A stretch of 64,000 nt of DNA from a virus, in the IMG/VR virus record IMGVR_UViG_3300047284_000228, positions 46,787 to 110,786 of that record; one strand, 5' to 3'. The position numbers were made by a program, and so were the translations under genes. The notes under the pieces were generated by a model. It had not been told where the DNA came from. It did not search any database and saw only the letters and a list, made by a program, of their open reading frames with translations. Below, one piece after another: positions 30,825 to 54,526 of the stretch. Position 1 is the first letter of the stretch, and every line of letters starts with the position of its first letter.

Positions 30825-32272
30825 TGGCACAAGAAAAACGCAGTCCGGTAAAAGAAGACGAAGGTAAATTACCTTCGGGGATTCTACTAGCAAAAGTAGT
30901 AGGATATCTTGACCCCGCCTTTATGGGCGGGCTTGAAGTGACGCTGTTACGAGAAAACGGAAATTCGATTGGTAACTTAAATCAAACATATTCTATAAAG
31001 TATTCTTCTCCCTTCTACGGAGTTACTGCCTACGAATATCTAGGAATGAATAAACCGGACTTTCAAGACACACAAAAAAGTTACGGAATGTGGTTTCCTA
31101 CAGTAGAGATAGGAACCACAGTTTTGGTTGTGTTTGTTAACGGAAGTGCTGATTCAGGATTTTTCATAGGCTGTGTTCCTGGTAGGTTTATGAATCAAAT
31201 GATTCCTGCTATCGGAGGAACCACAGATGTTGAGCTTACCGCTGATCAAAAAAAGAAATATGACACCACGCAACCGTTGCCTGTAGGAGAGTTTAATCGT
31301 AAGGCTAACGAACAAGAAAAGAGCTTGGCCGTAGACAAGATTAAAAAGCCTGTTCATCCTGTGGCTGATAGATTTTTAGAACAAGGATTGTTAGAAGACG
31401 ATGTTAGAGGAGTGACAACATCCTCTAGTAGGAGAGGAGTACCTAACGCAGTTTTTGGTATATCGACTCCGGGACCGTTTGATAGATCGGACGGAGCTAA
31501 AAAGCAGTTTATCGGCAAACAACAGAGCAAGAGTCCTATTCCAGTACCGGTAGGCAGATTAGGCGGTACTACCATAGTAATGGATGATGGTGACGATAGG
31601 TATCAGAGAAAGAAAAAACCCTGGGAAGGCGGTGTTGAATATGCAGATACTGAAAATAAAGAAAAGGGCGATCCTGATATTCCCTACAACGAATATTTTA
31701 GAATCAGAACTAGAACAGGTCATCAGATATTATTCCATAATTCCGAAGATTTAATCTACATAGGTAATGCCAGAGGAACTGCGTGGATCGAATTAACCAG
31801 TAACGGTAAGATTGATATTTTTTCTGAGGACAGTATCAGTATACACACTGAAACAGATTTGAACATTAGAGCAGACAGAGACATAAATCTAGAAGCAGGT
31901 AGGAATGTTAATATCAAAGCAGTTTCGGGTAGTTTTCATGCCGAAGCAGGAAAAGAATACAAGATATATGCAGCCGCCGACGGAAGGCTCACAGCAGGAC
32001 TTGCAACCAGCATAGTCAGCGGAGGCGCTATATTACAGACCGCGGCTCAAATACATCTAAACGGACCTCCGGGTGTACCCGTAGTTCCTCTTTCCACCCA
32101 TGATAATATCGTTACCAGCTCTAGTGAAAAGTGGGAAGGTAAAAATCGCTACGCGGTTAAAGATCCTCTGAAAAGTATTATGAAGCGTGTTCCTATGCAC
32201 GAACCCTGGGCCCTACATGAAAATCAAGCACCGGATCTACTAACACCGGACAATACAGATAGAGAAGCATAA
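30824..32272 (+). CDS. 5: Baseplate hub/puncturing needle gp5, lacking the lysozyme domain
   Basis: This 482-residue protein has an OB-like amino domain (GILLAKVVGYLDPAFMGGLEVTLL; SPFYGVTAYEYLGMN; YGMWFPTVEIGTTVLVVFVNG). A polar linker (about 135-285) follows, then GHQILFHNSEDLIYI and a VgrG/gp5 triple-stranded beta-helix (about 290-410) with repeating DISIHTETDLNIRADRDINL-type octads. T4 gp5 has a lysozyme domain between OB and helix; no such domain or catalytic Glu motif is visible here. It forms the central spike. It overlaps the upstream gene by one base and gp25 by one base. Confidence 0.88.
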   Translation: MAQEKRSPVKEDEGKLPSGILLAKVVGYLDPAFMGGLEVTLLRENGNSIGNLNQTYSIKYSSPFYGVTAYEYLGMNKPDFQDTQKSYGMWFPTVEIGTTVLVVFVNGSADSGFFIGCVPGRFMNQMIPAIGGTTDVELTADQKKKYDTTQPLPVGEFNRKANEQEKSLAVDKIKKPVHPVADRFLEQGLLEDDVRGVTTSSSRRGVPNAVFGISTPGPFDRSDGAKKQFIGKQQSKSPIPVPVGRLGGTTIVMDDGDDRYQRKKKPWEGGVEYADTENKEKGDPDIPYNEYFRIRTRTGHQILFHNSEDLIYIGNARGTAWIELTSNGKIDIFSEDSISIHTETDLNIRADRDINLEAGRNVNIKAVSGSFHAEAGKEYKIYAAADGRLTAGLATSIVSGGAILQTAAQIHLNGPPGVPVVPLSTHDNIVTSSSEKWEGKNRYAVKDPLKSIMKRVPMHEPWALHENQAPDLLTPDNTDREA

Positions 32273-32706
32273 TGGCAAAATTATATAATAAAAAATCAGT
32301 AGCATCTGTGAATGCATCTGTTAGTGATAGTCTAGCAGCTTTTACCTATAAGGGATTTAATTCTTCTGAGACTAAAAAAGGTTACAAGAGCTACGATATG
32401 GATTTGGTCAAACAAGACATTATAAATCATTTTTATATCCGTAAGGGAGAAAAGTTAATGAATCCGGATTTTGGTACGGTGATCTGGGATTTATTATTTG
32501 AACAATTCACTGAAGAAGTTAAAAAATTAATCACAGATAACGTTGAAGAAATAATCAACTATGATCCTAGAGTAACTGTGAATTCTGTGTTAATAGATAG
32601 CACAGACATGGGAATTAGGATAGAAGCTAACGTCACTTATCTACCGTTTAACATTAACGAAAACATGGTTTTTAACTTTGACAGAGCAAATAATATCATT
32701 AACTGA
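32272..32706 (+). CDS. 25: Baseplate wedge subunit (gp25-like)
   Basis: This 144-residue protein contains the gp25 core IRKGEKLMNPDFGTVIWDLLFEQFTE and carboxy part VNSVLIDSTDMGIRIEANVTYLP. In T4 and other contractile systems gp25 nucleates the sheath at the baseplate. The 'P-D-F-G' replaces the typical EPR-like site (R-P-E-F-G). Length fits T4 gp25 (132). It is followed by a 41-base gap with a late-promoter box before gp6. Confidence 0.92.
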   Translation: MAKLYNKKSVASVNASVSDSLAAFTYKGFNSSETKKGYKSYDMDLVKQDIINHFYIRKGEKLMNPDFGTVIWDLLFEQFTEEVKKLITDNVEEIINYDPRVTVNSVLIDSTDMGIRIEANVTYLPFNINENMVFNFDRANNIIN

Positions 32707-36159: not shown

Positions 36160-39100
36160 ATGGCACAAGAATTTTTTCCAGAAAGCGGATTACCTATTAG
36201 AAGAACAGTAGAACTTCTACCTAGTATCTTTCAAACCGAAAGCAATAGTAAATTTCTATCGGCAGTATTGGATCCTTTGGTCCAGCCAGGAACATTACAG
36301 AAAACTGTGGGATATATCGGCAGAAGGTATGGCAAGACCTATGTACCTACCGACATATATCTAGATACTGACAATACTCTGCGCAGTCGATATCAGTTAG
36401 AACCTGGAGTAACTGTTAAAGAAAATAACAGAGTAACTTCCTTCTACGATTATCTAGATTTTAAAAATCAAATTAAATTTTTCGGAAATTTAGAAGAATA
36501 CGATGCTATAGTTACTAGCCAAGATCATTATACTTGGACTCCGCCGATTGACTGGGATAAGTTTGTTAACTATAGAGAATATTATTGGGTTCCTGCAGGC
36601 CCTCCTCCAGTGACCATTGCAGGACAAGCCCAGAGAATTGTCAGTACCTATAGAGTAGCTCTTGGTACAGGCAGTGTGTTTATTTTCACGCCGGACGGTA
36701 TGTCTAATAACCCAACTATTACTTTGTATAGAGGACAGACATACAAATTCCAAGTTAGTGTTCCCGGACACGGCTTTACTATCAAGACCAATGTTGACAT
36801 AGGAAGATTAACATTTGATCCTAATAGAAATTATACTCCAGGCGAGCTAGTGGTATTCGATGAAAAGTTATGGAAAGCTAAAACAAACATTTCTTCTACT
36901 GACGGAAGCACCATAGACGAAAATAGTCAGGATTGGGAATATGTCGAGGATGTTGGTATCGCCAGTCAGTTTGATTATAATACAGGAGTTACAAATAACG
37001 GTGCCGAACGAGGAACAGTTACTTTTGAAGTTCCTATGAATGCTCCCGATGTACTGTTTTATCAAAGTACCACAGATATAAACAGGGTTGGTAGATTTAT
37101 CATAGCCGATGTCGACACCAATACAAAAATAGATGTCGAAAAAGAAATTCTAGGTAAAGTAACCTATACCAGTAGTAATGATGTTACATTAACTAACGGC
37201 ATGATAATCTATTTTTCAGGAAAGGTCAGCCCTGAAAAATATTCAAATTTAGATGATAAGTGGTTAGTTGAAGGTGTAGGAAAAAAAATCACTCTTACGA
37301 AATTCACTGATTTAATCGTATCTGCTAGCCTAAGCGGCAACAACATAGACGAAATATTATTTGATAACGGTGGATTTGACACACAACCGTTTGATGATGC
37401 AACAGCATATCCTGCTAAAAAAGATTACCTTACCATTAATAGATCTAGTGTAGATTCAAATCCTTGGTCGCGATATAATAGGTGGTTTCATAGAAGTGTA
37501 TTAGATTATTCTCATACATTTAACGGTTCGAGTTTTGAAGCCACTGAAGATTCTCGTGCTAAAAGACCAATTGTAGAATTCAAAGCTAATCTACAGCTTT
37601 TTAATCATGGTGCCCTAGCTAAACAGACAGTAGACTACATCGATGATTTTACCAGTGACGTGTTTTCTACAGTAGAAGGTAGCAGCGGTTATCTTGTAGA
37701 TGGCGAAGCTTTGTTTGAAGGAGCAAGAGTATTGGTCACTGCCGATACTGATAGCCTGGCCAATAATCAAATATATGTAGTACATTTTATTACACACAAT
37801 GGTTCAAAACAGATCAATCTAAAGAAAGCCGCAGACGGCGATTCAATAATCAACGAATGTGTACTGATTAGACGAGGAGTTAAAAATTCTGGCCTAATGT
37901 ATCATTACAATGGTACTACCTGGATAAAGAGTCAAGAAAAAACAAGTTCTAATCAAGAACCGCTTTTTGACTTATTCGACGACAATGGAGTTTCTTTCTC
38001 TGATATTGACACGTATCCGGTATCGACTTTTGCTGGAACTAGAATTTTAGGTTATCAACAAGGCTCCGGGGTAGTAGATACGGAATTGGGATTTTCTCTA
38101 TCTTATCTTAACATTGAAAATGTCGGAGATATAAAGTTCAGTTACGATTTAGATTATCAAGATTTTAATTATAAAGTTTTAGATACACGATATACTAAAA
38201 AATACAAGACAGGATTTTATAAATTTAATCCTGATAATCAATACGGAAACGGTTGGATTTTATTAGACAACGAATATTCTCAACCTATAATAGATACTAC
38301 AGTTGTAGACGAGATTACTGATACGATTGTTTCAACCGCAGTAGATTGGAGTAATGTACAAGAATCTCAAATTAGAAAAATTGTATTTTATAAAAATGGA
38401 ATCAGATCTAGAGTTTCTTGGCAGCGACAAGACAACAGGTTTATTTTCGAAGAAAAATTTCAAGTCAACGATACTGTAACAATCAAGATTTTTGCCGATC
38501 TAGATCCGGCCACTGGGTATTATGAGTTGCCATTGGGTCTTGAAAAAAATCCCCTCAACGACGAAATTGAGTCTTTTACTCTGGGCCAAGCTTCGGATCA
38601 TGTGTTAACAGGTCTAGATCTAACAGATAATTTCGAAGGGTTATTCCCTGGAAAAAACAATCTAAGAGACTTAGATGATTTTCAAAATAGATGTAATAGA
38701 TTCTTAAAACATAGTAATGTTTCTCCTTTGTCTGTTCTCAGTCTATGCGACAAAGAAGTTAATATTATCAAATCTATACAATACGCTAAAAAAGCCTATA
38801 CAGATTTTAAAAATACATTTATCGACCTAGCCTATAATCTGTATTCTGATCAGGAACCGAGAGATTTTGTTGATCAGATATTAGAAGAAATCAGTAAATC
38901 TCAAAACTCATCAAGACCATTTTCTGAATCTGATATGGTAGGCAGCGGAGCTTTTACATCTATTGATTATACTGTTGAAGATACAGGAATTAAAACATTT
39001 GCTTTGTCGAGTAAGTTTGATCTAGACACACTCAGTTCTAGAGCAGTATATGTTTATCGTAATGGAGTACAGTTATTACATGGTACACAGTACGAATTTA

Positions 39101-42100
39101 ATTCTACATTTGGTTTTATTAATTTAACGATAGAGTTGGCAGAAGGCGATGAGATACAGATCAGAGAATATGTTTCTTCTTATAGTAACTATATTCCTCC
39201 AACACCAACAAAATTAGGTCTCTATAAAAAGTATACTCCTATGAAGTATCTAGACGATACATTCATATCACCTAGAGAAGTCATACAAGGACACGACGGA
39301 AGCCTTACGGCGTCGTATGGAGATTTCCGAGATGATTTATTATTAGAATTAGAATATAGAATTTATAATAATATTAAACAAAAATATGATGAAAATATTT
39401 TTGATAATGATCTAGTATTAGGCGGATATTACGGAAATTCTCTCTACGATAAACCCTCAGTTGATAGTATAGTGTCGTTGGAATTTTTAAAATGGATCGC
39501 TGATACTAATATTGATTATATCAACAATCTTTATTTTGACAGCGAAGAATCATTTACCTATACCTACTCAAATATGACAGACCCTACCGGTACTAAAAAC
39601 CTGCCCGGTTACTGGAGAGGAGTATATAAATGGTTCTATGACACAGACAGACCTCATCTGTGTCCTTGGGAAATGTTAGGTTTTTCGGAAAAACCAACAT
39701 GGTGGGAAAGTGAATATGGTCCCGCACCTTATACAAAAAATAATCTGATACTTTGGGAAGATCTACGTGACGGTATAATTCGTCATGGAAACAGAGCAGG
39801 AACATACAAAAGATATCAGCGACCGTCTCTTATAGGACATATTCCCGTAGATGGTGACGGTAACTTAGTAAGCCCTCTTAATTCTGGACTAGCAACCAAT
39901 TTTACGTTGTTTAATAATCAAGGATCGTTCGACCTTGGTAGTGTTGCCCCAGTAGAAGCAGCCTGGAGATCCAGTTCAGAATGGCCATTTGCTTATATAA
40001 TAGCCTTATGTCTGTTAAAACCTTTTGAATATATCACAGACAATTATAATAAATCTGAAATAGGTCTTAACGTTTTAGGACAGACTATTAATAAAAACAC
40101 AGGTACGTTTTCAACAATTTCAGATATTATTTTTGAAAATTCATCGACTAAGATTGTTTCTGGTCTAGTAAACTATGTTGCAGATTATCTTAAGAGTAAA
40201 ACAACTCCTATAGATGTACTCAAAGATAAGATAACACATATTGATGTAAATCTCAGTACACGACTTTCTGGTTTTGTAGATCAAAGTCAACAGAAATATC
40301 TACTAGATAGCAAAAATCCAAACTCGTCTACGAGTAATATTTTTATTCCTCAGGAAAATTACGATATAATCTTTAATGTAAGTTCTCCTATATTTTCTTT
40401 AGTATACAGTGGTGTAATCTTAGAAAAGACTACACAAGGATGGAGACTACAGGGATATGATAATAAGAATCCGTTCTTCTACTATTACGAGGCATTGACT
40501 TCTCAGTCAGATCCCATTATATCGGTTGGAGGTGTCAGCGAAAGCTTCTTAAACTGGAGCGAAGAAAAATTTTACGGCAATGGTGTTGTTGTCAAATACA
40601 ATAATAATTATTATAGAAGTTTATCGAGTCATACCAGTACTACTGTATTTGATAAAACATTATGGAAGCAACTTCCTGATCTTCCTTTAAAAAATGCTGT
40701 CCAAGCATTTAGAAGAAACAAGTTCAACAGACTGTCTCTAAGGAAAATGCCTTATGGTCGTATTATGTCTAGGATCCAAGAAGTGGTTGATTTCTTATTA
40801 GGATATCAAGAATATCTAATAAGCATCGGATTCGTATTTGATGGGTATGATGCAGCAACACAGAGCACTGCTGACTGGTTCACATCTGTAAAAGAATTCA
40901 TGTTCTGGACCAAGCATAATTGGAGCAACGGTTCACTATTAACACTGAGCCCTAGCGCAGCAAAAATAACCGCCGAAGTTTCTATAGGTGTTGCGGACAA
41001 TTTCCTAGACAGTTTCTACGATTATCAAATATTGAGAGAAGACGGAACTCCGTTGCAGCCTAATTTTATTAATGTGGCCAGAGATCATAAGCAACTAGTA
41101 TTATCCACAGTTGATACAAATGCAGGAATTTATTTTATGAGAGCAAATTTTGTTCTCAAAGAGCATGTGACTGTATTTGATGATCGAACAGTTTTCAACG
41201 ATGTTATCTACGATAAGCCGACCGGATATCGCCAGATGAGAATTAAGAGTCGAGGTTTCCGAACAGTTGATTGGGACGGTGACTATACCAGTCCAGGATT
41301 TATCTTTGATAATGTAAAAATAGAAACCTGGAGACCGTTCACTGATTACAGATTAGGCGATATTGTCGCATACAAATCTTATTATTGGGTCAGCAAACAA
41401 AATCAATTAGGCTCTGAAAATATCGATGAGACAAAGTGGTCAAAATTAGATTCTGTTCCTACTAAAGGATTAGTCTCTAACTTTGATTATAGAATTAGTC
41501 AGTTCGGTGACTACTATGAAGTTGAAGCAGACGGAGTAGGTTCAAGTCAGAGAGATCTAGCTAGACACGCTATTGGCTATCAGTCCAGAGAATATTTACA
41601 AGCTCTAGCCGAAGACGAAGTTAGTCAATTTAGAATCTATCAAGGCTTTATCAGAGAAAAAGGCACAGCTAATTCCATAGTTAAAGTGTTCGATAAGTTG
41701 AGTCGTAGCAAAGACGATAGTATCGTACTGAACGAAGAATGGGCTTTCAAGATCGGAGAGTTTGGCGGCACCGATCAAACAAAAGAAGTTGAGTTTTTAA
41801 TCACTAAAGACTCATTAGTAATTAATCCTCAGCCGGTATTGGTTGTATCATCTAAGAGCAACGTGATCGTTGATCAAAATCTTAGAATTGATCCTTCGAT
41901 GTTTACCATTAGGTCAAAAACATTTACTACTGACATTAATCCTGTTGAGTTCTATAAAGGAACTTCCCGTTCTGCCGGCTATGTACATAAATCAGATGTT
42001 GACTATGTTGCAGCGAACAGAGACGGAATTCTTGACATCGATATTTCGCAGGTCAATGACGGAGCCCATATCTGGATTACATTTGACAGATATACATGGA

Positions 42101-45100
42101 CAGTGCTGAGATATAATGAAGAGTTATCTCTTAGAATAGTAGCAGTCGAAAAAGTTGACTCGGATGTAAGAGTTACAACAAATAGATCTCATAATTTATC
42201 TGTTAATGATATTGTTGGAATTACCAAAGTTCTTAATCTCACAGGTTTTTATAAGATAAAATCTCTAACGGCAAATACATTTACGGTGACTCCCACATCG
42301 ACAGATAATCCAGAAATCGAAGATAGCACTCATGCTGTTATAGGTCTGCTAACAGAAGCAAAGTTTGATAATTATTCTAACCTAGATCCTCAATTACTAG
42401 CTATGTTACAGAACGGAGCAAGATTGTGGATCAACGATAACGGTAGCGAACAGTGGGAAGTTATTGAAAAAACTAAACAATATAAATCTTATGAACTTGA
42501 AGACTATGGTATAACTGCGCCTTTAAATCTAGGATCGACTGTTTTATACGTAGAACAAAGAAAACATGTAATTACCAGCATCCCAACATCCAACTTTGTG
42601 ATGGTCTATTCGGACCGATCAGGGATCAACGGGTCGCTGCTATTAAATCAAATTATACCTCCGGCAGACGGTTTTGACACAGCAGTGAATGATGTATTTG
42701 GTCAAGTACTAGCAGTATCTCCCGACGGACTATGGTTAGCTGTCGGCACACCTATGGCCAGTGCCGTTCCTAGTAAATTTAGAGGCGAATTAACTTCTTC
42801 TAGTTATCTTGCCGGCGATGTAGTACTACATCGAGGAAAACTCTGGGAAGCCGTTAACAATATTGATTCGGGTGACGGCAGCACTATTAATTTTACCACA
42901 GAAGACTGGCAACCCGCTACTCTGGTAGAAGCATCGGCAGTAGGACTAGGCACTGGATATGTCAACCAAGGAATGGTTTCTCTTTATAAGTTCCAAAACG
43001 GACAGTGGGAAAATCAGATCAACATTGTAAGTCCTAGACCTCGTACCTACGAACTATTTGGTAGTGATATTAAGATAGCAGTATCCGGATCGAGATATAC
43101 TATGGCTGTTTCTGCCAAAGGTTCTTTGTGTGATACACAGATTGGGCCTAGTACCGGTAAAGGAAGGGTTTACCTATACGAGTTTGATGGTGTAGAGTGG
43201 AAACATTATGAAAATTCAAATTATCTTGGCATCTACGGACCTTATGATCCAATAGTATCTCCCTACACTGAATACCCCGCCGGCAGTATAGTATGGTCAG
43301 AAGGAAGTCTATGGCAGGCCATTGCAGATAATATCTATGACGGTAGCTCGATTACTTTAAATTCTACAGATTGGATTCGACTAGACCAGATAGCCACCGA
43401 TAACTCATTACCTACAAACGTGTCATTAGATGACGACGGATCTACTCTGGCTCTTGGTCTGCTAAACGAATCTCAATTAGCTGAACTAGTCAAAGACGGA
43501 GACCAGTTCGGACATAGTCTAGCTATGTCTAGGGACGGTTCAATATTAGTGGTTGGTATACCCAACGGCGACGCACAATATTTTGCAAACTACAAAGGAA
43601 TATGGAGTCCTTACCAGCAGTATGTATCCGGTGATGTTGTTAGATACCAGGATAGTTACCATATTTTATTAGACGACAATTCTCTTGACGGATCGTCAAA
43701 TACCAGTCTCAATGAAAGACCCGACGAAGGCGAACCATGGAGCAACGTTGGCGATAGTTCAGTAACCAGCACAGGAAAGATTTTTATCTATCAGAAGAAT
43801 AGTCTAGGTGTATACGATCTTATTCAGACTATAGCCGCATCTAATCTAAACGACATTAACGACAGCACAGTCGCAGATGCAGAAATAAGCTCCGGGGATC
43901 AATTTGGATATGCAGTTGATATAGATGCATCCGGTACAACTATCGTGGTCAGTAGCCCTCTTGCAGATATCATTAAACAAAATCAGGGTGCAGTTTATGT
44001 GTTTAAGAAAACAGGTGCTGCTGAAGTACAATTTAGATTAAGTCAAAAATTACAGAGTTTTGAAAGCTATACCAATGAATATTTTGGATCAAGTGTTTCG
44101 ATCAGTGCAGCCACTGAGCGTGTGGTAGTTGGTGCAAAAAATTCTGGTTATGATCTGATCACAACATTCGATTCAGGATCCACCACATTTGATAGTAGAA
44201 GAACATCTTATAGCACTAGGTTGGGATACCCTGGACAAGTTTATGTATTTGAAAGAAAGGATCAAGGATATCTACTAGCAGAAAAATTAGAAGCTGATTT
44301 TGTTTCCTTCGAATCTTTTGGTCATGCTGTTGATTGTACCAGTTCTGTGGTCGTAGTAGGATCACCGACCTATAAGGTGGAAGATATTGAAGTGGGTATG
44401 ATTAGACTATTTAAGAAAGACCCTTCAGTCAATAGTCTTAAGATCATACGTCAACAAACTGCTCAAGTTGATCTCGATGCTATTAAAAATATAGAGATCT
44501 ATGACGATAAGAAAAATGTAAAATTAGCTGACCTAGATATAGTCGATCATTTTAAGTTAAAAACATTATCGTTGGCAGATCAAGACATTAGGTATAAGAC
44601 TGTATATGATCCTGCGATCTATATGGTAGGCGACGATACAGTAACCATAGACGAATCACAGGCATGGTTTGAAGATCAGGTAGGCGAAGTATGGTGGGAT
44701 TTAGATTCTGTAAAATTCTTAAATTACGAACAAGATGATTTAAGCTATCGAGTCGGCAATTGGAATGCTCAAGTTGAAGGCTCTAGGGTCGACGTCTATG
44801 AATGGGTGGAAACACCATTGTTACCTTCGGAGTGGAGTATATTAGCCGACACTGTAGAAGGCCTAGCTGAAGGAATTTCAGGCCAGCCAAAAAATGCAGA
44901 TGACACGGTATACAATGTAAAGATTTTAACTAATCCTTCTACAGGAAATCCTACCAATACCCTATACTATTATTGGGTAAAAAACAAAACTACCCTGCCT
45001 ACCAATGCCGACAGACGCATGTCTGTAGCATCGATTAGTTCTTATATCTCCAATCCAATAGGCACAGGTATTCCTTTCGTAGCGATTTTAGACACAGACA

Positions 45101-48100
45101 AGTTTGCATTTTATAACTTTAAATCTGTATTAAACAGCGATACTGCGAAAATCAATATTGAATTTAATCTGGCGAAGACCAATATAAATCCTGTACACAA
45201 AGAATATCAGCTATTAACAGAAGGAGTAGCAGACTCATTACCTGCAGATAGTTTAGAAAGGAAATGGCTAGACAGTCTTGTTGGCTTTGATGACGCAGGA
45301 AATACTGTACCCGATTTTAATCTATCAGAAAATCAAAGATACGGTTTAAGTTTTAGACCTAGACAAACTATGTTTGTTAACAGAGCTAAAGCCCTAAGAA
45401 TCGCCATCGATAACATTAATTCTGTTTTAGAAACCAGACCTTTTACTGATTTGATTAATTTTGTTAATCTTAACAGTACTGATCCGTTACCCAGTGAAGA
45501 ATTAAATGAATACGATATAGCCGTTGATGAATATATTGATTTAGAACAGGTCGGAACGGCTAAGATTAAGTCAGCAGAATTTAGAGCTAATATAATCAAC
45601 GGCCGGATCGATACGATTGATATTGTTGATCCGGGTTTCGGATATAGAACAGTTCCTTTCATAGAAATCGAAGGAACCGGAACCGGAGCCAAAGCCGCTG
45701 TTACTTTAGATAGTCAGGGTCGAGTAGTTTCATGCACGGTATTGATCAAAGGTAAAAAATATACCTCTGCAATAGTTAAAATCAGACCTTTTACTGTCCT
45801 GGTAAGAAATGATTCAACCGATAAAAACTTCTGGAGCTTGTACGGTTGGGACCAGTTGAGAAAAATATTCTATAGAAGAAAGTCTCAAGGTTTTAACACT
45901 AGTTTATATTGGGAATATATAGATTGGTGGACAGAAAACTTTGATGAAAAATCAAAGATATTCAAAGAAATTAATTATTTCTATGAAGAACCATCTGTGA
46001 ATATTCTAACAGGATCTTTACTAAGAGTAAAGGAATACGGTTCTGGTGGCTGGGCAGTATTACAGAAAACTGAAAAAGGTCAAGGATCGATTTTAGAAAA
46101 TTATAATTTAGTAGGTAGACAGAACGGTACAATTCGAATTAAAGAAACTCTGTATGATGCGGTCACAGCCTCTTTAGGCTACGACAATATAGGCCCTTAT
46201 GATTCTGTGTTATATGATCTTCAGCCAATCAAAGAGTTGAGATCAATTCTTAAAGCAGTTAAAGAGGATATTTTCGTTGACGATCTCAGCGTTGAGTGGA
46301 ATAAATTATTTTTCAGTTCTGTGAAATATTCCTATGCCGAACAGCAATATATTGATTGGGCTTTCAAGACCAGTTTCTTAAATGCGATTCATAATGTAGG
46401 AGATCTAGATCAACGTCCAAATTATAAAAACGACAATCTTGATCAGTTTAGAAGTTATATAGAAGAAGTTAAACCTTATAGAACTACTGTAAGAGAATAT
46501 ACATCTAGATACACAGAAAAAAATAACTACGGATCGGCTCTAACAGACTTTGATCTTCCGGCTGCATGGTCAGTTCGTGACGGAAAAATACTACCAGTAT
46601 CATCGTCTTATAATAGGTTTGACGAATATCCCTGGAAGTCATGGTTAGAGAATAACGGATTTTCTATAATTGAAATCGCAGTATCGAAACCGGGTTCGGG
46701 ATATAAAACACCTCCTAAAGTATTGATCGAAGGCAATGGAACGGGTGCTTCGGCTACTGCTTTTATTTCTAGCGGAAAAGTATCTGGCATACGAGTAGAT
46801 AATCCCGGAATTGGTTATACAAAAACTCCTACCATCTTGCTGGTAGGCGGTAATGGAACCAGTCAGGATGTCGCTAAAGCTTCTGCAATTCTAGGCAACA
46901 CCAAGATAAGGAGTTTTGATCTAGGAATCAAATTTGATAGAATAGCTAAACAAGGTTTGTATAATACGTTTACTACTTCGCAGACATTCACCGCTACTGG
47001 ATATAGTGCAGTGTTTAATCTAAATTATGCTCCTAGTATAGATAAAACTAAGATTTCTATAATTAAGAACAATCAATTAGTCTTGCCAAATGAGTATGAA
47101 ATAAATCTTTACAAGACAGATGAAGGTGGTTTTACTCTGTTAAAAGGCAAGATAAGGTTCTTTATCGCACCAGCAGCAGGCGATGTAATTGTTGTTGACT
47201 ACGAAAAGAATGACGAAATATTAGACAGCATCAACAGAATAGAAAAATACTATTCACCTACTGCTGGAATGATAGGTAAAGAAATCAATCAGTTAATGAC
47301 AGGAATTGACTACGGCGGAGTACAGATTCAAGGTACAACTTTTGACGTAACCGGCGGCTGGGATGCTCTTCCATGGTTTACTGATAACTGGGATAGTGTT
47401 GAAAGTAATTCTGATTTTTACTATGTAGCAGATGGCAGTACTACTTTCGTTGTCTTACCATATGTGCCTGAAAACAATCAACCTATTTCTATATACTTAA
47501 AACGAGTATATGAAAATAGACCAACTAGGATAGACGATCCTTATTTCTTGGAATATGATGGGTCTACGCCTCAGCCAAACGGTAGAGTAACCGTGCCCGA
47601 TACTGCATTGATACCTACATTCATTGGAGACGGATCTACAAATATTGTAGAAATACATGATTACATTAGTACTTCTCCGGGCGATACACTGATATTTAGA
47701 AAATTGGAAAGTGACGGATCAGTTACAATTACCGATGTTAATTTGTTAGATACTAGGATCAGTGGAGGATCGTTATCTGCGATCGGCGGAGCATACGTGA
47801 CTGCGGCAGGCCTAACTCCAGAAGAAATTGTCATAGATGGAGATAAGTTTGTAACACCAGAAAACACACCTGCACCAGAAGAAAATCTTCCCGGGCAGGT
47901 CTTAGATAGCCTAAGTTTCAAAGTCTTTACCATCACCAGTCCCGGTGCATCTGCGCTTCAAAACAAAGTGCTTATAGGTGACGGACAAACATTAGTCTAT
48001 GATATAGGTTTGACTATTTTTGAAGCATCGTCTGTCATGGTCTATGTTGATAAAATCAAACAAGAATATGTTGGAGATAGTTCAGTAAGTTACTCGATAA

Positions 48101-49917
48101 ACTTTATCAACAACACCATTGAATTTAATAATGCTCCGCCTGCGGGATCTATCATTGAAATTATTTCCATAGGAATCGGCGGTATTCAATTATTAGATTA
48201 TCAGGAATTTGTTGCCGACGGGACAACTAATTTATTTTTAACCAAAGCCTTGTATGAGCAGACATTTTCTATTTTAGTCACAGTAGACGGTCAAGCAGTG
48301 GATGTTGGATTTGCAAACAGCAGCGATTTTATCGAAGCAAGAGACAAAACCTTGGTACAATTTGGAACAGCGCCTGGATTTAGAAAGGTAATAAAGATCA
48401 TCTGCTTTGGTGCATCTGCAGAAACAGATTCTACCTATACTCCGTTTACTAGAGTTAATAGGCAAGCTATCTCTTATGACGGAAGTACTAGGTCATACGA
48501 ACTAGATACGTTTGTGATTTTATCTCAAGCATCTGCTGTTTCTAATATTCTTGTTGAAGTAAACGGAAGAATATTAAACGGAGTCGACAATACATATGTG
48601 GTCTACGATGGCACTAATAATAATATAGAAGTTGGTGTAGACCCAGACGAAGCTATTGGTACTATCGTTTCTGGATCTATCAAGGTTTATATTAATAACG
48701 TACTACAACGATTTGTTATTGATTATACCTACAACGGTAATCAAAATTTAATCAACGTACCGTCTACACGTCTACAAATAGGAGATGTGATCACGGTAAT
48801 TACAGACACTAGGGCAGAATATTTTATCGACAATAATAATATAGTTTTTAGTCCTTCTTTAGCGTTGACTCAGACAGATGAAATCCTAGTGACCTGGTTC
48901 AGCGAATATGCGACTATGAATCTTGTATCTGACGAATATACTGGAGGACAGATAAATTATAAATTAGCTAGACGTCCAGTAGATGTAAATTATCTTTGGG
49001 TTTATAAAAATGGATATCGTCTTACCAAAGACCGAGACTACTATCTCGATCCTGTAAGATCAGTTGTTTATTTTAACGATGTCACTATTAACGCCGATCA
49101 AATAAAAATTGTTCAATTTGGAAACATCGTCTATGAATTGCCTAGGGCATTTGAAATCTATAAGGATATGTTTAACAACTATCATTATAAGAGATATTCC
49201 AAATCAAATAATATCCTATTAGCTAAAGATCTAAGTTACTTTGATACCTCAATGGAACTAACAGACACCACCGGATTATCTATTCCTGATCAACTGAGAA
49301 ACATACCGGGCGTGATCATTATTAACAATGAGAGAATAGAGTATTTTAATATTCAAGGTAATATCATCAGTCAACTACGCAGAGGCTGCCTAGGAACAGC
49401 GATTAAAGAATCGCATGCTGCCGGAAGTTATGTGATCAATGTCGGGGCTGACGACACATTGCCATATTTAGAATCTCAAGAAAAAACAGATCTTGTCAGC
49501 GATGGTAGCAGTTTAATCATAGGACCATTGGATTTTACTCCTAGAAATTCCAACAGATCATCTTGGACACGTATTTCTATTCCCGACAACTATTATCCTT
49601 GCGATGAAATCGAAGTGTTCGTTGGCGGTCGTAGATTGAGAAAAGATTCAGTTAGTTTATATGATCAGACATTAGGAGCTACCAGTCCTACTGCAGATTT
49701 CGTCGAAGAAGCTGAGTTTTCAGTAGATGGGATCACACCGTATGTGAGATTGACAGAAAAAGTTGCTGCAGGAACTAGAATTTCTATTATTCGAAAAGTA
49801 GGAAGAGTTTGGTACGAACGAGGACAAGTAACCGCAAGCAAGGGCGTAAGTTTGTTATCTAACGACACCCCTATAGCTAAATTCATAGCAGCCAAGTCCA
49901 CAGAATTACCAGAATAA
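36160..49917 (+). CDS. Giant baseplate protein (gp7-position), 4585 residues
   Basis: The opening SGLPIRRTVELLPSIFQTES, LDPLVQPGTLQKTVGYIG and WTPPIDWDKFVNYREYYWVP matches the large wedge protein that follows gp6 in marine T4-like phages. T4 gp7 has 1032 residues. Inside I see six carbohydrate-module-like repeats (near residues 226, 1473, 1730, 2218, 2373, 2488), six FG-GAP-like blades (about 2170-2740) and two long Gly-rich 'GxGY-x-PP-x-V-x-I-x-GNGTGA' units (near 3150 and 3510). A series of beta-sandwich 'VYVNG-x-Q ... PPAG-x-I' units fills the last 1000 residues. It is probably wedge plus peripheral adhesin. The T4 gp7 link rests on order and the amino end. Confidence 0.85.
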   Translation: MAQEFFPESGLPIRRTVELLPSIFQTESNSKFLSAVLDPLVQPGTLQKTVGYIGRRYGKTYVPTDIYLDTDNTLRSRYQLEPGVTVKENNRVTSFYDYLDFKNQIKFFGNLEEYDAIVTSQDHYTWTPPIDWDKFVNYREYYWVPAGPPPVTIAGQAQRIVSTYRVALGTGSVFIFTPDGMSNNPTITLYRGQTYKFQVSVPGHGFTIKTNVDIGRLTFDPNRNYTPGELVVFDEKLWKAKTNISSTDGSTIDENSQDWEYVEDVGIASQFDYNTGVTNNGAERGTVTFEVPMNAPDVLFYQSTTDINRVGRFIIADVDTNTKIDVEKEILGKVTYTSSNDVTLTNGMIIYFSGKVSPEKYSNLDDKWLVEGVGKKITLTKFTDLIVSASLSGNNIDEILFDNGGFDTQPFDDATAYPAKKDYLTINRSSVDSNPWSRYNRWFHRSVLDYSHTFNGSSFEATEDSRAKRPIVEFKANLQLFNHGALAKQTVDYIDDFTSDVFSTVEGSSGYLVDGEALFEGARVLVTADTDSLANNQIYVVHFITHNGSKQINLKKAADGDSIINECVLIRRGVKNSGLMYHYNGTTWIKSQEKTSSNQEPLFDLFDDNGVSFSDIDTYPVSTFAGTRILGYQQGSGVVDTELGFSLSYLNIENVGDIKFSYDLDYQDFNYKVLDTRYTKKYKTGFYKFNPDNQYGNGWILLDNEYSQPIIDTTVVDEITDTIVSTAVDWSNVQESQIRKIVFYKNGIRSRVSWQRQDNRFIFEEKFQVNDTVTIKIFADLDPATGYYELPLGLEKNPLNDEIESFTLGQASDHVLTGLDLTDNFEGLFPGKNNLRDLDDFQNRCNRFLKHSNVSPLSVLSLCDKEVNIIKSIQYAKKAYTDFKNTFIDLAYNLYSDQEPRDFVDQILEEISKSQNSSRPFSESDMVGSGAFTSIDYTVEDTGIKTFALSSKFDLDTLSSRAVYVYRNGVQLLHGTQYEFNSTFGFINLTIELAEGDEIQIREYVSSYSNYIPPTPTKLGLYKKYTPMKYLDDTFISPREVIQGHDGSLTASYGDFRDDLLLELEYRIYNNIKQKYDENIFDNDLVLGGYYGNSLYDKPSVDSIVSLEFLKWIADTNIDYINNLYFDSEESFTYTYSNMTDPTGTKNLPGYWRGVYKWFYDTDRPHLCPWEMLGFSEKPTWWESEYGPAPYTKNNLILWEDLRDGIIRHGNRAGTYKRYQRPSLIGHIPVDGDGNLVSPLNSGLATNFTLFNNQGSFDLGSVAPVEAAWRSSSEWPFAYIIALCLLKPFEYITDNYNKSEIGLNVLGQTINKNTGTFSTISDIIFENSSTKIVSGLVNYVADYLKSKTTPIDVLKDKITHIDVNLSTRLSGFVDQSQQKYLLDSKNPNSSTSNIFIPQENYDIIFNVSSPIFSLVYSGVILEKTTQGWRLQGYDNKNPFFYYYEALTSQSDPIISVGGVSESFLNWSEEKFYGNGVVVKYNNNYYRSLSSHTSTTVFDKTLWKQLPDLPLKNAVQAFRRNKFNRLSLRKMPYGRIMSRIQEVVDFLLGYQEYLISIGFVFDGYDAATQSTADWFTSVKEFMFWTKHNWSNGSLLTLSPSAAKITAEVSIGVADNFLDSFYDYQILREDGTPLQPNFINVARDHKQLVLSTVDTNAGIYFMRANFVLKEHVTVFDDRTVFNDVIYDKPTGYRQMRIKSRGFRTVDWDGDYTSPGFIFDNVKIETWRPFTDYRLGDIVAYKSYYWVSKQNQLGSENIDETKWSKLDSVPTKGLVSNFDYRISQFGDYYEVEADGVGSSQRDLARHAIGYQSREYLQALAEDEVSQFRIYQGFIREKGTANSIVKVFDKLSRSKDDSIVLNEEWAFKIGEFGGTDQTKEVEFLITKDSLVINPQPVLVVSSKSNVIVDQNLRIDPSMFTIRSKTFTTDINPVEFYKGTSRSAGYVHKSDVDYVAANRDGILDIDISQVNDGAHIWITFDRYTWTVLRYNEELSLRIVAVEKVDSDVRVTTNRSHNLSVNDIVGITKVLNLTGFYKIKSLTANTFTVTPTSTDNPEIEDSTHAVIGLLTEAKFDNYSNLDPQLLAMLQNGARLWINDNGSEQWEVIEKTKQYKSYELEDYGITAPLNLGSTVLYVEQRKHVITSIPTSNFVMVYSDRSGINGSLLLNQIIPPADGFDTAVNDVFGQVLAVSPDGLWLAVGTPMASAVPSKFRGELTSSSYLAGDVVLHRGKLWEAVNNIDSGDGSTINFTTEDWQPATLVEASAVGLGTGYVNQGMVSLYKFQNGQWENQINIVSPRPRTYELFGSDIKIAVSGSRYTMAVSAKGSLCDTQIGPSTGKGRVYLYEFDGVEWKHYENSNYLGIYGPYDPIVSPYTEYPAGSIVWSEGSLWQAIADNIYDGSSITLNSTDWIRLDQIATDNSLPTNVSLDDDGSTLALGLLNESQLAELVKDGDQFGHSLAMSRDGSILVVGIPNGDAQYFANYKGIWSPYQQYVSGDVVRYQDSYHILLDDNSLDGSSNTSLNERPDEGEPWSNVGDSSVTSTGKIFIYQKNSLGVYDLIQTIAASNLNDINDSTVADAEISSGDQFGYAVDIDASGTTIVVSSPLADIIKQNQGAVYVFKKTGAAEVQFRLSQKLQSFESYTNEYFGSSVSISAATERVVVGAKNSGYDLITTFDSGSTTFDSRRTSYSTRLGYPGQVYVFERKDQGYLLAEKLEADFVSFESFGHAVDCTSSVVVVGSPTYKVEDIEVGMIRLFKKDPSVNSLKIIRQQTAQVDLDAIKNIEIYDDKKNVKLADLDIVDHFKLKTLSLADQDIRYKTVYDPAIYMVGDDTVTIDESQAWFEDQVGEVWWDLDSVKFLNYEQDDLSYRVGNWNAQVEGSRVDVYEWVETPLLPSEWSILADTVEGLAEGISGQPKNADDTVYNVKILTNPSTGNPTNTLYYYWVKNKTTLPTNADRRMSVASISSYISNPIGTGIPFVAILDTDKFAFYNFKSVLNSDTAKINIEFNLAKTNINPVHKEYQLLTEGVADSLPADSLERKWLDSLVGFDDAGNTVPDFNLSENQRYGLSFRPRQTMFVNRAKALRIAIDNINSVLETRPFTDLINFVNLNSTDPLPSEELNEYDIAVDEYIDLEQVGTAKIKSAEFRANIINGRIDTIDIVDPGFGYRTVPFIEIEGTGTGAKAAVTLDSQGRVVSCTVLIKGKKYTSAIVKIRPFTVLVRNDSTDKNFWSLYGWDQLRKIFYRRKSQGFNTSLYWEYIDWWTENFDEKSKIFKEINYFYEEPSVNILTGSLLRVKEYGSGGWAVLQKTEKGQGSILENYNLVGRQNGTIRIKETLYDAVTASLGYDNIGPYDSVLYDLQPIKELRSILKAVKEDIFVDDLSVEWNKLFFSSVKYSYAEQQYIDWAFKTSFLNAIHNVGDLDQRPNYKNDNLDQFRSYIEEVKPYRTTVREYTSRYTEKNNYGSALTDFDLPAAWSVRDGKILPVSSSYNRFDEYPWKSWLENNGFSIIEIAVSKPGSGYKTPPKVLIEGNGTGASATAFISSGKVSGIRVDNPGIGYTKTPTILLVGGNGTSQDVAKASAILGNTKIRSFDLGIKFDRIAKQGLYNTFTTSQTFTATGYSAVFNLNYAPSIDKTKISIIKNNQLVLPNEYEINLYKTDEGGFTLLKGKIRFFIAPAAGDVIVVDYEKNDEILDSINRIEKYYSPTAGMIGKEINQLMTGIDYGGVQIQGTTFDVTGGWDALPWFTDNWDSVESNSDFYYVADGSTTFVVLPYVPENNQPISIYLKRVYENRPTRIDDPYFLEYDGSTPQPNGRVTVPDTALIPTFIGDGSTNIVEIHDYISTSPGDTLIFRKLESDGSVTITDVNLLDTRISGGSLSAIGGAYVTAAGLTPEEIVIDGDKFVTPENTPAPEENLPGQVLDSLSFKVFTITSPGASALQNKVLIGDGQTLVYDIGLTIFEASSVMVYVDKIKQEYVGDSSVSYSINFINNTIEFNNAPPAGSIIEIISIGIGGIQLLDYQEFVADGTTNLFLTKALYEQTFSILVTVDGQAVDVGFANSSDFIEARDKTLVQFGTAPGFRKVIKIICFGASAETDSTYTPFTRVNRQAISYDGSTRSYELDTFVILSQASAVSNILVEVNGRILNGVDNTYVVYDGTNNNIEVGVDPDEAIGTIVSGSIKVYINNVLQRFVIDYTYNGNQNLINVPSTRLQIGDVITVITDTRAEYFIDNNNIVFSPSLALTQTDEILVTWFSEYATMNLVSDEYTGGQINYKLARRPVDVNYLWVYKNGYRLTKDRDYYLDPVRSVVYFNDVTINADQIKIVQFGNIVYELPRAFEIYKDMFNNYHYKRYSKSNNILLAKDLSYFDTSMELTDTTGLSIPDQLRNIPGVIIINNERIEYFNIQGNIISQLRRGCLGTAIKESHAAGSYVINVGADDTLPYLESQEKTDLVSDGSSLIIGPLDFTPRNSNRSSWTRISIPDNYYPCDEIEVFVGGRRLRKDSVSLYDQTLGATSPTADFVEEAEFSVDGITPYVRLTEKVAAGTRISIIRKVGRVWYERGQVTASKGVSLLSNDTPIAKFIAAKSTELPE

Positions 49918-49927: not shown

Positions 49928-50599
49928 ATGACAAAGCCAGAGACAAATATGCCCAAAATTAAAGAATCGGAACAAGCGAAAAGCACCGAAAAACGCCCTA
50001 ACGAAGTCGGAGGATTCCACTTTGAAGGGCATATTAAGATTTTCGATCCAAACACCAAAGAAGTTTTTATAGATAAACGTAATGCTATCCATTACGAAAA
50101 TATGAGTATAGCTATGGTAAACGCCTTATCTAATCAAGGACAGGGTACTATCTACGAAATGGTGTTTGGCAATGGCGGAACTACAGTAGATCCGACCGGG
50201 TTGATCACATATCTAACTCCTAACACCGTAGGAATCAACACAAGTTTATATAATCAAACTTATAATAAAATCGTTGATCAAAATGCAGACGAAAACATAG
50301 ACCCTGTTAGAAACAAAATGGAAATCCGACATATCAGCGGAGCGACCTATAGTGATATATTAATTTCTTGTATTTTAGACTACGGTGAGCCCGACGGTCA
50401 AGAAGCATTTGATAATAGTCAAACAATGAACGGAGATTTTGTTTTTGATGAACTAGGATTAAAATCTTTTAATCCTAACGGCGACGGAAAACTGCTGACA
50501 CATGTCATCTTTCATCCTGTACAGAAATCTTTAAATCGTTTAATACAAATAGATTATACGATTAGAATTCAAAGTTTAACAAGTTTTGCTGAGGTATAA
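49928..50599 (+). CDS. Virion structural protein, unknown
   Basis: This protein is 223 residues from ATG 49928, or 216 from ATG 49949 (MPKIKESEQAKSTEKR). Neither has a clear ribosome site; the promoter position favours the second. After a charged start come GGFHFEGHIKIFDPNTKEVFID, AIHYENMSIAMVNALSNQGQG and YEMVFGNGG, then a beta-rich carboxy part ending LIQIDYTIRIQSLTSF. The gene lies between the baseplate giant and the first fibre paralogue, so a baseplate-fibre connector is possible. I recall similar proteins in marine T4-like phages but know no function. Confidence 0.75.
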   Translation: MTKPETNMPKIKESEQAKSTEKRPNEVGGFHFEGHIKIFDPNTKEVFIDKRNAIHYENMSIAMVNALSNQGQGTIYEMVFGNGGTTVDPTGLITYLTPNTVGINTSLYNQTYNKIVDQNADENIDPVRNKMEIRHISGATYSDILISCILDYGEPDGQEAFDNSQTMNGDFVFDELGLKSFNPNGDGKLLTHVIFHPVQKSLNRLIQIDYTIRIQSLTSFAEV

Positions 50600-50601
50600 A
50601 G

Positions 50602-52677
50602 ATGCCATATATTGTAAACTTTACAGATAAAGATAATAAGTTACCGATTACGGTATATGATAACACCTCTAGTACGGATACTAGTCTTACATTTCCGGGA
50701 AGAAACGTAACAGGATACGGCCAGACTATCGCCGAAAACTTTTTAGCTGTACTAGAAAATTTCGCTAAAAGCACTCCGCCAGTAAATCCGGTTGAGGGAC
50801 AGTTGTGGTACGATTCTTCAGAAGCAGTCTCCTCGCTACAGGTGTTTGATGGCACCACTTGGAAAGCAGCATCTCAGATACAAAAAAGTGTTGTAGAACC
50901 TGCAGTGGCATCTTCCAAGGTCGGAGAATTATGGGTTGACACTACTAATCAACAGTTATATGTGTTCTCCGGAACACGATGGATTCTAGTAGGACCTAAT
51001 TTTTCCACAGGGTTAAGAAGTGGTCCTTTGGTCGAACAAATCATAGATTCTGATAATATCGCTCGAGTTGTTTTAACCTTTTACATAGAAGATATTCCAG
51101 TTATTATATTCAGTAAGGATAGTTTTACTCCTAAGGTTTCAGTAAACGGTTTCATTACTATTCGTTCTGGTATGAACTTAACCAGTAATGAAATTGGTAC
51201 AGGCGGTCTCGATACTAAAATCTGGGGAACTAATACATCTGCTGAGTCATTAACAATCAATAATGTAGAAATAGCAGCCAGTAAATTTTTACGTTCGGAT
51301 GTGGTAAACACAACCGAATTCGGTATTAACGTTAGAAATAACCAAGGTATCACTTTGGGAGTTAATGGAACTTTTAGTATTTCTAACAGTGACATAGCAG
51401 GAAAGATTTATAATTCTAGTCCCGGTTCTAGCATCGATCTTCAAATTAATAGAGATGGAATTCCAAATACCATTCTAAGAGTTTTAGAAAACACAGTTGG
51501 TATCAACGTACAGGCACCAACAGAAGCTTTAGATGTTGATGGTAATATTAAGTCTAACGGCGCTATTATTTTAACAGATACAACTGCAAGCACGAATTTT
51601 GAAAACGGAACGTTTATAACTGCTGGTGGAGCTGCTATTGCTAAAAATTTACTAGTCGGTGATGGAATCAAGGTTACCGGAGTATCCGAATTTAACAATG
51701 TTCAACCAGAATTTACTGACACACATGATTTAGGTTCAGATTTGAAAAGGTGGAAAACTGTACGTGCTAAAACTGTAATAGCTGAAACTCTTGAGGGGGT
51801 TTTATCTGGAAACATTACAGGAAACTCGGCAACATCTACTAACCTTAAATTTGTTACCACATTCAAAATGGAGGGTGACGTTACCTCTCCTAGCTTTACC
51901 TTTGATGGACAAGTAGGCGGATTAACAAAAACTTTTAATACTACGCTAACCTCTGCGCTGATTAGTTCTAAAAACGAACCTCTGCCAAATCTATCAAAAA
52001 AGAACGACTATGTGTTAGTCTACAGATCATCAGAGGGACTATTAAAACAAACTAGAAATACGTTTGTAGGAGACCTTGCAGTTCCTATTGGAGGAATATT
52101 ACCTTATGCGGGCACAGAAGCCCCCTATGGTTATCTACTCTGCGATGGTAGTGAAATTGAAAAATCGAAATTTCCAGATTTGTTTGACGTTCTAGGAACG
52201 AGATATAATACTGTATCTTTAAATGGTGTAGGAACATTTAGGTTACCTGATCTTAGAGGTAGATTTCCTCTGGGCAAGGATAACATGGATAATAACAATA
52301 CTGTTCCTAACTCATTGGGTAGCTATATTGATGCAGGCGGCGGAAACATAGACAGAGTCGCGGGTACAGCACCGGACAATCTAGGAGACAGTGGAGGACA
52401 AAGTTCGAACATCTTAACAACCAGCAACTTGCCAGAACACGAGCATAATATGAAAGGATCCACAGGACAACAATATTATGCAACACGAGTAGATAGTTCT
52501 ATTCCTAGTGATACTGGATCTTTGTCTGAAAGAGGTCCAACAACGGTTGGACAGAGTCAATATATACCTTCATCGGGGGGAGTAAAGACTTCTGCGGCGC
52601 TGGGACAAGCATTTTCGGTTATGAATCCGTTCTTAACATTGAACTACATTATTCGTTCAGGCCCACCGGCATTCTAA
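50602..52677 (+). CDS. Tail fibre with collar domain (gp12-like), tandem paralogue 1
   Basis: This 691-residue protein shares its amino module with the next three genes: NVTGYGQTIAENFLAVLENF, GQLWYDSSEAVSSLQVFDGTTWK, GELWVDTTNQQLYVFSGTRW. A beta shaft follows. The carboxy part is a phage tail collar domain: PIGGILPYAGTEAPYGYLLCDGSEI, then TFRLPDLRGRFPLGKDN and LPEHEHNMKG, with the His pair typical of metal-binding fibre heads. T4 gp12, the short tail fibre, has the same collar family. It probably binds host receptors. It lies two bases after the upstream gene. Confidence 0.9.
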   Translation: MPYIVNFTDKDNKLPITVYDNTSSTDTSLTFPGRNVTGYGQTIAENFLAVLENFAKSTPPVNPVEGQLWYDSSEAVSSLQVFDGTTWKAASQIQKSVVEPAVASSKVGELWVDTTNQQLYVFSGTRWILVGPNFSTGLRSGPLVEQIIDSDNIARVVLTFYIEDIPVIIFSKDSFTPKVSVNGFITIRSGMNLTSNEIGTGGLDTKIWGTNTSAESLTINNVEIAASKFLRSDVVNTTEFGINVRNNQGITLGVNGTFSISNSDIAGKIYNSSPGSSIDLQINRDGIPNTILRVLENTVGINVQAPTEALDVDGNIKSNGAIILTDTTASTNFENGTFITAGGAAIAKNLLVGDGIKVTGVSEFNNVQPEFTDTHDLGSDLKRWKTVRAKTVIAETLEGVLSGNITGNSATSTNLKFVTTFKMEGDVTSPSFTFDGQVGGLTKTFNTTLTSALISSKNEPLPNLSKKNDYVLVYRSSEGLLKQTRNTFVGDLAVPIGGILPYAGTEAPYGYLLCDGSEIEKSKFPDLFDVLGTRYNTVSLNGVGTFRLPDLRGRFPLGKDNMDNNNTVPNSLGSYIDAGGGNIDRVAGTAPDNLGDSGGQSSNILTTSNLPEHEHNMKGSTGQQYYATRVDSSIPSDTGSLSERGPTTVGQSQYIPSSGGVKTSAALGQAFSVMNPFLTLNYIIRSGPPAF

Positions 52678-52687
52678 GGTACTTAAT

Positions 52688-54526
52688 ATGGCATATACAA
52701 TTAATAAAACAGATGGAACAATATTAGCAACGGTCGCAGACGGACAGGTCGATAATCTTTCTTCTGACATAACTCTTATAGGAAAAAACTACAGCGGGTT
52801 CGGCGAATCATTAAATGAAAATTTAATCAAGATATTAGAAAACTTTTCTAATTCGGCAGCACCGACTCACCCCATACGAGGCCAGATCTGGTTTGATACT
52901 TCTGAATTAAAACTTAAAGTGTACAACGGTAATGGTTTTGTTCCTGTAAGTTCAGCTACAATTTCTAGTTCGCAGCCGCTCACACTAGGTGTGGGAGATA
53001 TGTGGTTTAATGATGTAGATAAACAGTTATATTTCTTTGATGGTACAAATACGATCCTATTAGGCCCTGATTATTCAGCAAGTCAAGGACTTAGTGGTCT
53101 TAAGGTATCAAACATACTTGATACACTAAATCAAAACAGAGTTATTACTTTACTCTACACTAATGGAATTCTTTTAGGAATATTTTCTAAAGATACATTC
53201 ACTCCAAAATTACCTATAGAAGGATTCAGTGGAAATATACAACCAGGTTTCAATTCTGGAACACTAGCCGGTCTAAAATTTAATGTTACAGCGACTAATG
53301 CAGAACAACTAGGTAATCAGCCGGCCAGTGCTTATGTTCGAAACGATACTTCGAATATTATTAACGGACAGATTATTATTTCTTCCAATCTTGGAGTTAT
53401 CATCGGTGATGCCAACCAAGGACAGTTTCAAGTTCAAGATGGTAACTTGATCATCGCGAATATTGCTTCGAACAAGAATATGGTTCTTAACGTTAGAAGA
53501 GACGTTATTGCTGAACCTGCTTTTGAAATTGAATCTTTGCCTAGACGTGTTAACATATATGAGGATTATCCAGACAGTGAAGTCTTTATGGGGGGAAGCC
53601 TTACAGTTGACGGCGATCTAACAGTAAACGGTGATATGATCACTGTCAATACTAGCACCGTAACAATTGAAGATAAAAATTTAGTTTTAGCAAAACAGAC
53701 CGGTATAACTCCTACAGATGCGAATGCCGCAGGCGGCGGCCTTATTTTACAAGGTGCATCAAGTCATGTGATCTTATGGCACGATGTTGGACAGGCAGCA
53801 ACATCGGCTTCATCAGAAGCCTTATCTGCTGGTTATAATGATTCTCTCCCTGCACTAGCAAGTCAGGCATGGACCAGCACAGAACATTTTAACCTTGCAT
53901 CCGGTAAAGAATTTAAAATCAATGGAGTAACTGTTCTTTCTTCGACATCTTTAGGAGCAGGAATCACAAGCATTCCTGGGGTAACATCTTTTGGTCCGCA
54001 GACACAGTTTACAGTTGATAATATTTTTATGGATGGAAATACTATCCAAGTCACTGCTGCTAACACTGATCTAGTTCTTAACATAAATGGTACAGGAACG
54101 TTAAATTTAGGCAGTAAGAAAATTTCAAATGTATCGGATCCTACAACAGCACAGGACGCAGCTACAAAAGAATATGTCGATAACGTTACACAGACTAGAT
54201 CTTTGGCCTTTACTTTTGATATTTCGGACGGTATTTCGAATTCTGGAATCGCAGCATGGATAGAACAAATAGCACCTGTTGCTGAATATAGAAACGGAAC
54301 AGTAGCTAGAGTATTATGTTCATTGCTAGTAAACAATTCGACTAATTTAGAAATTAATCCGTTAACCGCAACAAGTTCTACAGAATTTGTCACTCCAACA
54401 GGAACAGCTTTCGGTTTGAATAACATCAGTTTTTCAACTGCTACCATCGCTGCTCCTAGCCTTTCTGTTTCGAGAATTGTTAAGACCTATCAAATTATCA
54501 GCGGTGCATGGACGTTTATATCATGA
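52688..54526 (+). CDS. Tail fibre, tandem paralogue 2
   Basis: This 612-residue protein starts MAYTINKTDGTILATVADGQ, then GKNYSGFGESLNENLIKILENFSN and GQIWFDTSELKLKVYNGNGF, the shared fibre amino module. The middle has GSLTVDGDLTVNGDMITVNTSTVTIEDKNLVLAKQTG. After that comes ISNVSDPTTAQDAATKEYVDN, a motif widespread near the ends of phage fibres. The last 130 residues are a beta-rich tip unlike those of its paralogues. The gene is part of the fibre array, 10 bases after the previous stop. Confidence 0.86.
   Translation: MAYTINKTDGTILATVADGQVDNLSSDITLIGKNYSGFGESLNENLIKILENFSNSAAPTHPIRGQIWFDTSELKLKVYNGNGFVPVSSATISSSQPLTLGVGDMWFNDVDKQLYFFDGTNTILLGPDYSASQGLSGLKVSNILDTLNQNRVITLLYTNGILLGIFSKDTFTPKLPIEGFSGNIQPGFNSGTLAGLKFNVTATNAEQLGNQPASAYVRNDTSNIINGQIIISSNLGVIIGDANQGQFQVQDGNLIIANIASNKNMVLNVRRDVIAEPAFEIESLPRRVNIYEDYPDSEVFMGGSLTVDGDLTVNGDMITVNTSTVTIEDKNLVLAKQTGITPTDANAAGGGLILQGASSHVILWHDVGQAATSASSEALSAGYNDSLPALASQAWTSTEHFNLASGKEFKINGVTVLSSTSLGAGITSIPGVTSFGPQTQFTVDNIFMDGNTIQVTAANTDLVLNINGTGTLNLGSKKISNVSDPTTAQDAATKEYVDNVTQTRSLAFTFDISDGISNSGIAAWIEQIAPVAEYRNGTVARVLCSLLVNNSTNLEINPLTATSSTEFVTPTGTAFGLNNISFSTATIAAPSLSVSRIVKTYQIISGAWTFIS

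Follow-up and report, generated by a model that had tools for sequence, protein, structure and literature searches.

The wedge core of the T4 contractile tail includes gp7, whose counterparts gpI and TssG lie in the core of related injection machines. In T4 the gp7 gene comes next after that of gp6 and encodes 1032 residues. The protein does the gp6 binding, in a (gp6)2-gp7 arrangement common to TssF/TssG (PMC6300606), so some gp7-like partner is expected. Jumbo phages of the RaK2, Atu_ph07 and PA5oct types have a much larger and little-studied protein, which databases and papers already record under the name ‘virion structural protein’ (PHROG 10938) without further analysis; the gene itself is thus not new. 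One published example is AP-J-162 gp58, a 4455-residue ‘structural protein’ beside a 1198-residue baseplate wedge protein (PMC11242549). Phage structural proteins of about 5,000 residues are also known elsewhere, as in the tape measure protein of phage P23-45 with 5,002 residues (PMC10770324).

We analysed a window of 64,000 nucleotides (positions 46,787 to 110,786) from an IMG/VR virus record of 110,786 bases in total (IMGVR_UViG_3300047284_000228). The window contains a single intact, ATG-started frame of 4585 codons with zero internal stops, encoding a protein with a predicted mass of 515 kDa and pI of 4.73; the chance of an equally long open frame at the same base composition is about 10^-149. 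At the same place an independent IMG/VR metagenome contig (L008) carries an ORF that is likewise 4585 residues long, with 84.8% amino acid and 76.8% nucleotide identity. Comparison of the two (NG86) gives a dN of 0.098 against a saturated dS of about 3.3, or a dN/dS of about 0.03, and the low ratio recurs in each 500-codon block that is computable, which indicates strong purifying selection along the entire frame. The equal length, the high identity and the low ratio together make this a real gene. The long single frame reported in an earlier sequence-only reading therefore stands, and a sequencing or frameshift error concealing stops is ruled out.

The protein matches PHROG 10938 in four stretches along its core (hmmscan, E=0, 1024 bits), and this family was found in every RaK2-, Atu_ph07- and PA5oct-type jumbo phage checked, with lengths of 3323–4555 residues: 4555 in Phosso, 4449 in Atu_ph07, 3857 in PA5oct, 3807 in SCTP-2, 3771 in Vibrio 2.275, and 3323–3342 in 121Q, RaK2, GAP32, XbC2 and Munch. 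A tblastn search with the giant protein hit 61 jumbo-phage records at 25–31% identity, and the portal protein of the window is closest to those of PA5oct, Phosso and Atu_ph07 (about 49–50% identity). The named relatives (RaK2 gp465, GAP32_230, CBB_236, PA5oct gp355, Atu_ph07 gp180 and AP-J-162 gp58) are homologous along the core and lie in the same place after a gp6-like gene, but are only 25–33% identical; the window lineage differs in its larger number of CBM5/12 units (six) and in an FG-GAP region that the models used do not find in these relatives. Scans of IMG/VR gave at least about 590 related stretches, reducing to at least 191 non-redundant proteins. The 105 complete ones range from 2242 to 6282 residues with a mode near 4.6 thousand, though some of the shorter are probably frameshifted assemblies. 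The window protein is thus typical of its family in size, and we rejected the idea that it is an exceptional outlier. The longest relatives (L119, L136 and L130, which are complete, and L225, which is open) run to 6,190–6,282 residues in single frames with added material at other sites, and the three complete ones have just one CBM-like unit each. We also considered a tape measure protein, but the giant gives no tape-measure match, and unlike that of P23-45 it is beta-rich, modular and encoded beside wedge genes; the roles of the two are unrelated as far as visible.

The genes upstream encode a 99-residue wedge-family protein, a 776-residue virion protein, a hub/lysozyme-family protein, and then the gp25-like and gp6-like proteins (Table 1); downstream lie a conserved protein of 190–240 residues and then fibre-like genes. 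The order gp25-gp6-giant is kept in the window and most relatives, and a gp6-sized ORF was found directly upstream of the giant in 172 sets, mostly with a gap of -8 to +30 nucleotides. In Salicola phage SCTP-2 (L006, 2624–11914) the ORF directly upstream instead has 3,096 residues and is not gp6-like; the gp6 family match there is about 80 kb away on the opposite strand, which means a rearranged wedge operon in that phage. The 223-residue protein downstream was considered as a candidate gp8 and rejected, as it matches none of T4 gp6–gp12.

Table 1. The giant gene, its segments and its neighbours, in window positions (aa, residues of the giant protein).
Feature	Position	Strand	Basis or comparison
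gp25-like wedge protein	32272..32706	+	PF04965 2e-9; phrog_43
gp6-like baseplate wedge protein, 1136 aa	32748..36158	+	phrog_10646 1.6e-288; phrog_219 (T4 gp6 family) 1e-17
Giant wedge-operon virion protein, 4585 aa, PHROG 10938	36160..49917	+	ORF, profile, comparison with L008
Core segment A, aa 1-150	36160..36609	+	Length near-constant in relatives; AlphaFold model of L011, first ~90 residues at low confidence
Plug-in site 1	36610..37215	+	Domain common to cyanophage ‘tail fiber connector’ proteins; 46-480 aa in relatives
Core segment B, aa 353-929	37216..38946	+	Another insertion site in some relatives
Plug-in site 2, beta module, aa 930-1003	38947..39168	+	Absent in L011; 18 short vs 150 long
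Core segment C, aa 1004-1457	39169..40530	+	Most conserved part
Plug-in site 3, CBM5/12 unit 2, aa 1458-1506	40531..40677	+	Insert in 104 relatives, without in 64
Core segment D, aa 1507-1715	40678..41304	+	164-179 long in 168 proteins
Plug-in site 4, CBM5/12 unit 3, aa 1722-1765	41323..41454	+	Insert in 135, without in 33
Core segment E and linker, aa 1766-2149 (core part 1766-2079)	41455..42606	+	Extra insertions in some relatives
Plug-in site 5, FG-GAP region, ~7 repeats	42607..44424	+	54 to 1534 aa across relatives
Core segment F, aa 2756-3127	44425..45540	+	Constant length; AlphaFold model of L011 equivalent
Plug-in site 6, Gly-rich unit 1, aa 3136-3203	45565..45768	+	Insert in 67, without in 64
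Core segment G, aa 3209-3490	45784..46629	+	Conserved FKTSF and EVKPY motifs
Gly-rich units 2-3, aa 3503-3568	46666..46863	+	Between segment G and the C-terminal array
C-terminal variable array, beta-sandwich modules (aa 3607-4330) and C-terminus	46978..49914	+	Poorly conserved outside lineage
Conserved downstream protein, 223 aa, phrog_11259	49928..50599	+	Profile match

Relatives of the giant have been found in virions. CBB virions yielded 21 unique peptides (7.72% coverage) of CBB_236 (3340 residues), a homologue of the window protein (PMC5259590, Table 4), and PA5oct gp355 carries an annotation note of ESI-MS/MS detection in the virion. Peptide data of this kind fit an intact chain or fragments alike. 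Gene order and mass spectrometry of the relatives’ virions together support a particle component encoded in the baseplate-wedge operon. Thus of the original assignment as an enlarged T4 gp7 in the baseplate, the placement among wedge genes and in the particle is upheld and the identity as gp7 is not. The category given to PHROG 10938, head and packaging, counts, as a database label, against the wedge reading.

The protein alternates between core segments and sites at which modules are inserted. The non-repetitive core totals about 2,300 residues, and segments C, D, F and G are almost constant in length (coefficient of variation 0.01–0.05 in 126–168 proteins). Occupancy across relatives is bimodal at sites 2, 3, 4 and 6. 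In a compact relative (L011) the insertion points hold only 1–33 residues, mostly loop in AlphaFold models. Mean identity to the window protein is 51% for the core vs 43% for the modules.

All four kinds of repeated module named in the sequence-only reading are present. A family-specific model finds six CBM5/12-like units (aa 215–263, 1458–1506, 1722–1765, 2201–2252, 2367–2410 and 2476–2529), the first (36802–36948) borne by the site 1 domain, which looks cupredoxin-like by eye, and the last three set in FG-GAP loops of site 5. Pfam CBM_5_12 itself matches three stretches (E=1.2e-11), and the A2 profile reaches only E=0.009 against the chitinase A1 domain; complete relatives have 0–7 CBM-like units. 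About seven FG-GAP repeats lie between aa 2178 and 2753 by the family model, several of them individually weak, and Pfam FG-GAP_2 matches three stretches (E=5.7e-16). Besides the Gly-rich units there are beta-sandwich modules at aa 935–1005 and 3607–4330; the latter belong to an array in the C-terminal 1,000 or so residues, and some are recognisably related to the site 2 module. The extra length had been ascribed to such modules, and they do explain part of it, but the core left after their removal is still more than twice the size of gp7. That adhesin domains have been absorbed agrees with the occupancy counts, by which adhesin-like modules are gained and lost between relatives.

By position, directly after the gp6-like gene, the part played by gp7 in the wedge is the most likely role of the giant. 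We think it probable that it serves as a wedge scaffold where T4 has gp7, with a core bound to the gp6-like protein and displaying exchangeable adhesive modules. As a virion protein of the wedge, it would use its core of some 2,300 residues to join the gp6-like protein or ring where gp7 does so in T4. This core would act as a chassis, with the CBM5/12-like, FG-GAP, Gly-rich and beta-sandwich modules set into surface loops and the C-terminal end, facing outward around the baseplate as adhesive elements of low specificity or as structural ones. If it were present in six copies, as gp7 is, the baseplate would gain about 3 MDa, and peripheral baseplate arms, as first proposed, are plausible. Chitin-binding domains are found in the CBM5/12 family, and FG-GAP repeats build integrin-type propellers, so reversible binding of glycans or surfaces near the baseplate may reasonably be expected, or the two kinds of module may be purely structural.

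The closest competing explanation is that the giant is a true but highly diverged T4 gp7 orthologue, of the gpI/TssG lineage, which kept the gp6-binding trifurcation and helix bundle and gained insertions. It would fit the shared slot and the conserved helices in the core seen in the AlphaFold models. When each segment of the giant was aligned by hhalign to six gp7s, however, the probability was below 1% throughout, while the same profile–profile method detects the gp6-like neighbour against only two gp6s (E=3e-4). The core alone would also be more than twice as large as all of gp7. The two model halves, which together span the conserved core, come from L011 (31% identical to the window protein): residues 1–1195 with pLDDT 83.9 and pTM 0.80, and residues 1205–2404 with pLDDT 80.6. 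In Foldseek searches of the PDB with both halves, the matches listed have a TM by query of at most 0.08 and do not include gp7, though the second model has a pTM of just 0.50; matches to endosialidases and ubiquitin E1 (TM at most 0.17, rmsd above 12 Å) were treated as spurious. Among viral predicted structures (BFVD) the first half matches well only its own family (TM 0.5–0.86), including the Atu_ph07 structural protein, and again gp7 is not among the fold matches listed. Profile searches of the PDB with the giant yielded a chitin-binding domain, a marginal match to a tube protein and nothing else. Membership of the gp7 family is therefore not supported, and we regard a diverged orthologue as unlikely.

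The two families exclude each other across the genomes tested. PHROG 219 (gp6) and PHROG 10938 are present in all seven complete jumbo genomes and PHROG 964 (gp7) in none of them, and T4 shows the reverse, with gp7 and without PHROG 10938. Nor was gp7 found in six further IMG/VR records of up to 453 kb. The gp7 profile (phrog_964) has no match in the giant protein or in G000, where the first-look filter of the genome search also missed the gp6 family, though hmmscan detects it. In the seven complete genomes gp8 was not found, save for one marginal 28-residue match, and gp10 gave a match in PA5oct alone among the jumbo genomes tested. On these searches we rejected the idea that T4 gp7 or gp8 is hidden elsewhere.

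A broader proposal, which we put forward tentatively as having perhaps one chance in three, is that in this T4-related jumbo clade an unrelated giant scaffold of novel fold took the place of gp7, and perhaps of gp8, and that its six or more loop sockets swap adhesive domains, so that the baseplate rather than the fibres varies the contact with the host surface. A clade that keeps gp6 and gp25, apparently without gp7 and gp8, and has an unrelated-looking protein of 2,200–6,300 residues in the slot would show that the wedge core is replaceable. A constant core with variable sockets also offers a direct route to asking how baseplates acquire and drop adhesive domains. The open-access literature searched has no description combining the apparent absence of gp7 and gp8, an unmatched core fold and socket-like insertions, which is not proof of novelty.

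The giant might instead be mainly a protein of a tail-fibre or adhesin network anchored at the baseplate, with the wedge core supplied by others such as the 776- or 223-residue neighbours. The adhesin-like modules, and their matches to cyanophage tail-fibre and connector proteins, are what one would expect of such a protein. Its most conserved part is nevertheless the non-repetitive core, compact relatives do without most modules, and separate fibre-like genes lie downstream, all of which makes this explanation improbable. Slightly less probable still is that the giant is a precursor whose cleavage gives several virion proteins, as its size and modularity and a weak Peptidase_G2-like autoprocessing domain in the downstream fibre genes might suggest, given that no protease domain was found in the giant and its relatives remain single long ORFs.

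Several other genes in the window deserve mention. Four successive fibre-like genes on the same strand (50602–58441; 691, 612, 696 and 584 residues) have a related N-terminal region of about 90 residues (phrog_15511/14394/8309) and different C-termini, likely a shared anchor carrying exchanged tips; a Phage Tail Collar domain occurs in one of them and the weak Peptidase_G2-like domain in another. They are followed by six successive genes (58454–62925, plus strand) that match nothing in Pfam and PHROG families weakly at best; at the equivalent place Phosso and Atu_ph07 have radical-SAM genes. On the minus strand, a protein of 1114 residues among the structural genes (15216–18560) has a GH19/endolysin-like domain near its C-terminus and is far above the usual endolysin size. 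A 222-residue gene between the portal and head genes (12627–13295, minus strand) has a weak PHROG match to alpha-2,3-sialyltransferase (E=2.5e-4).
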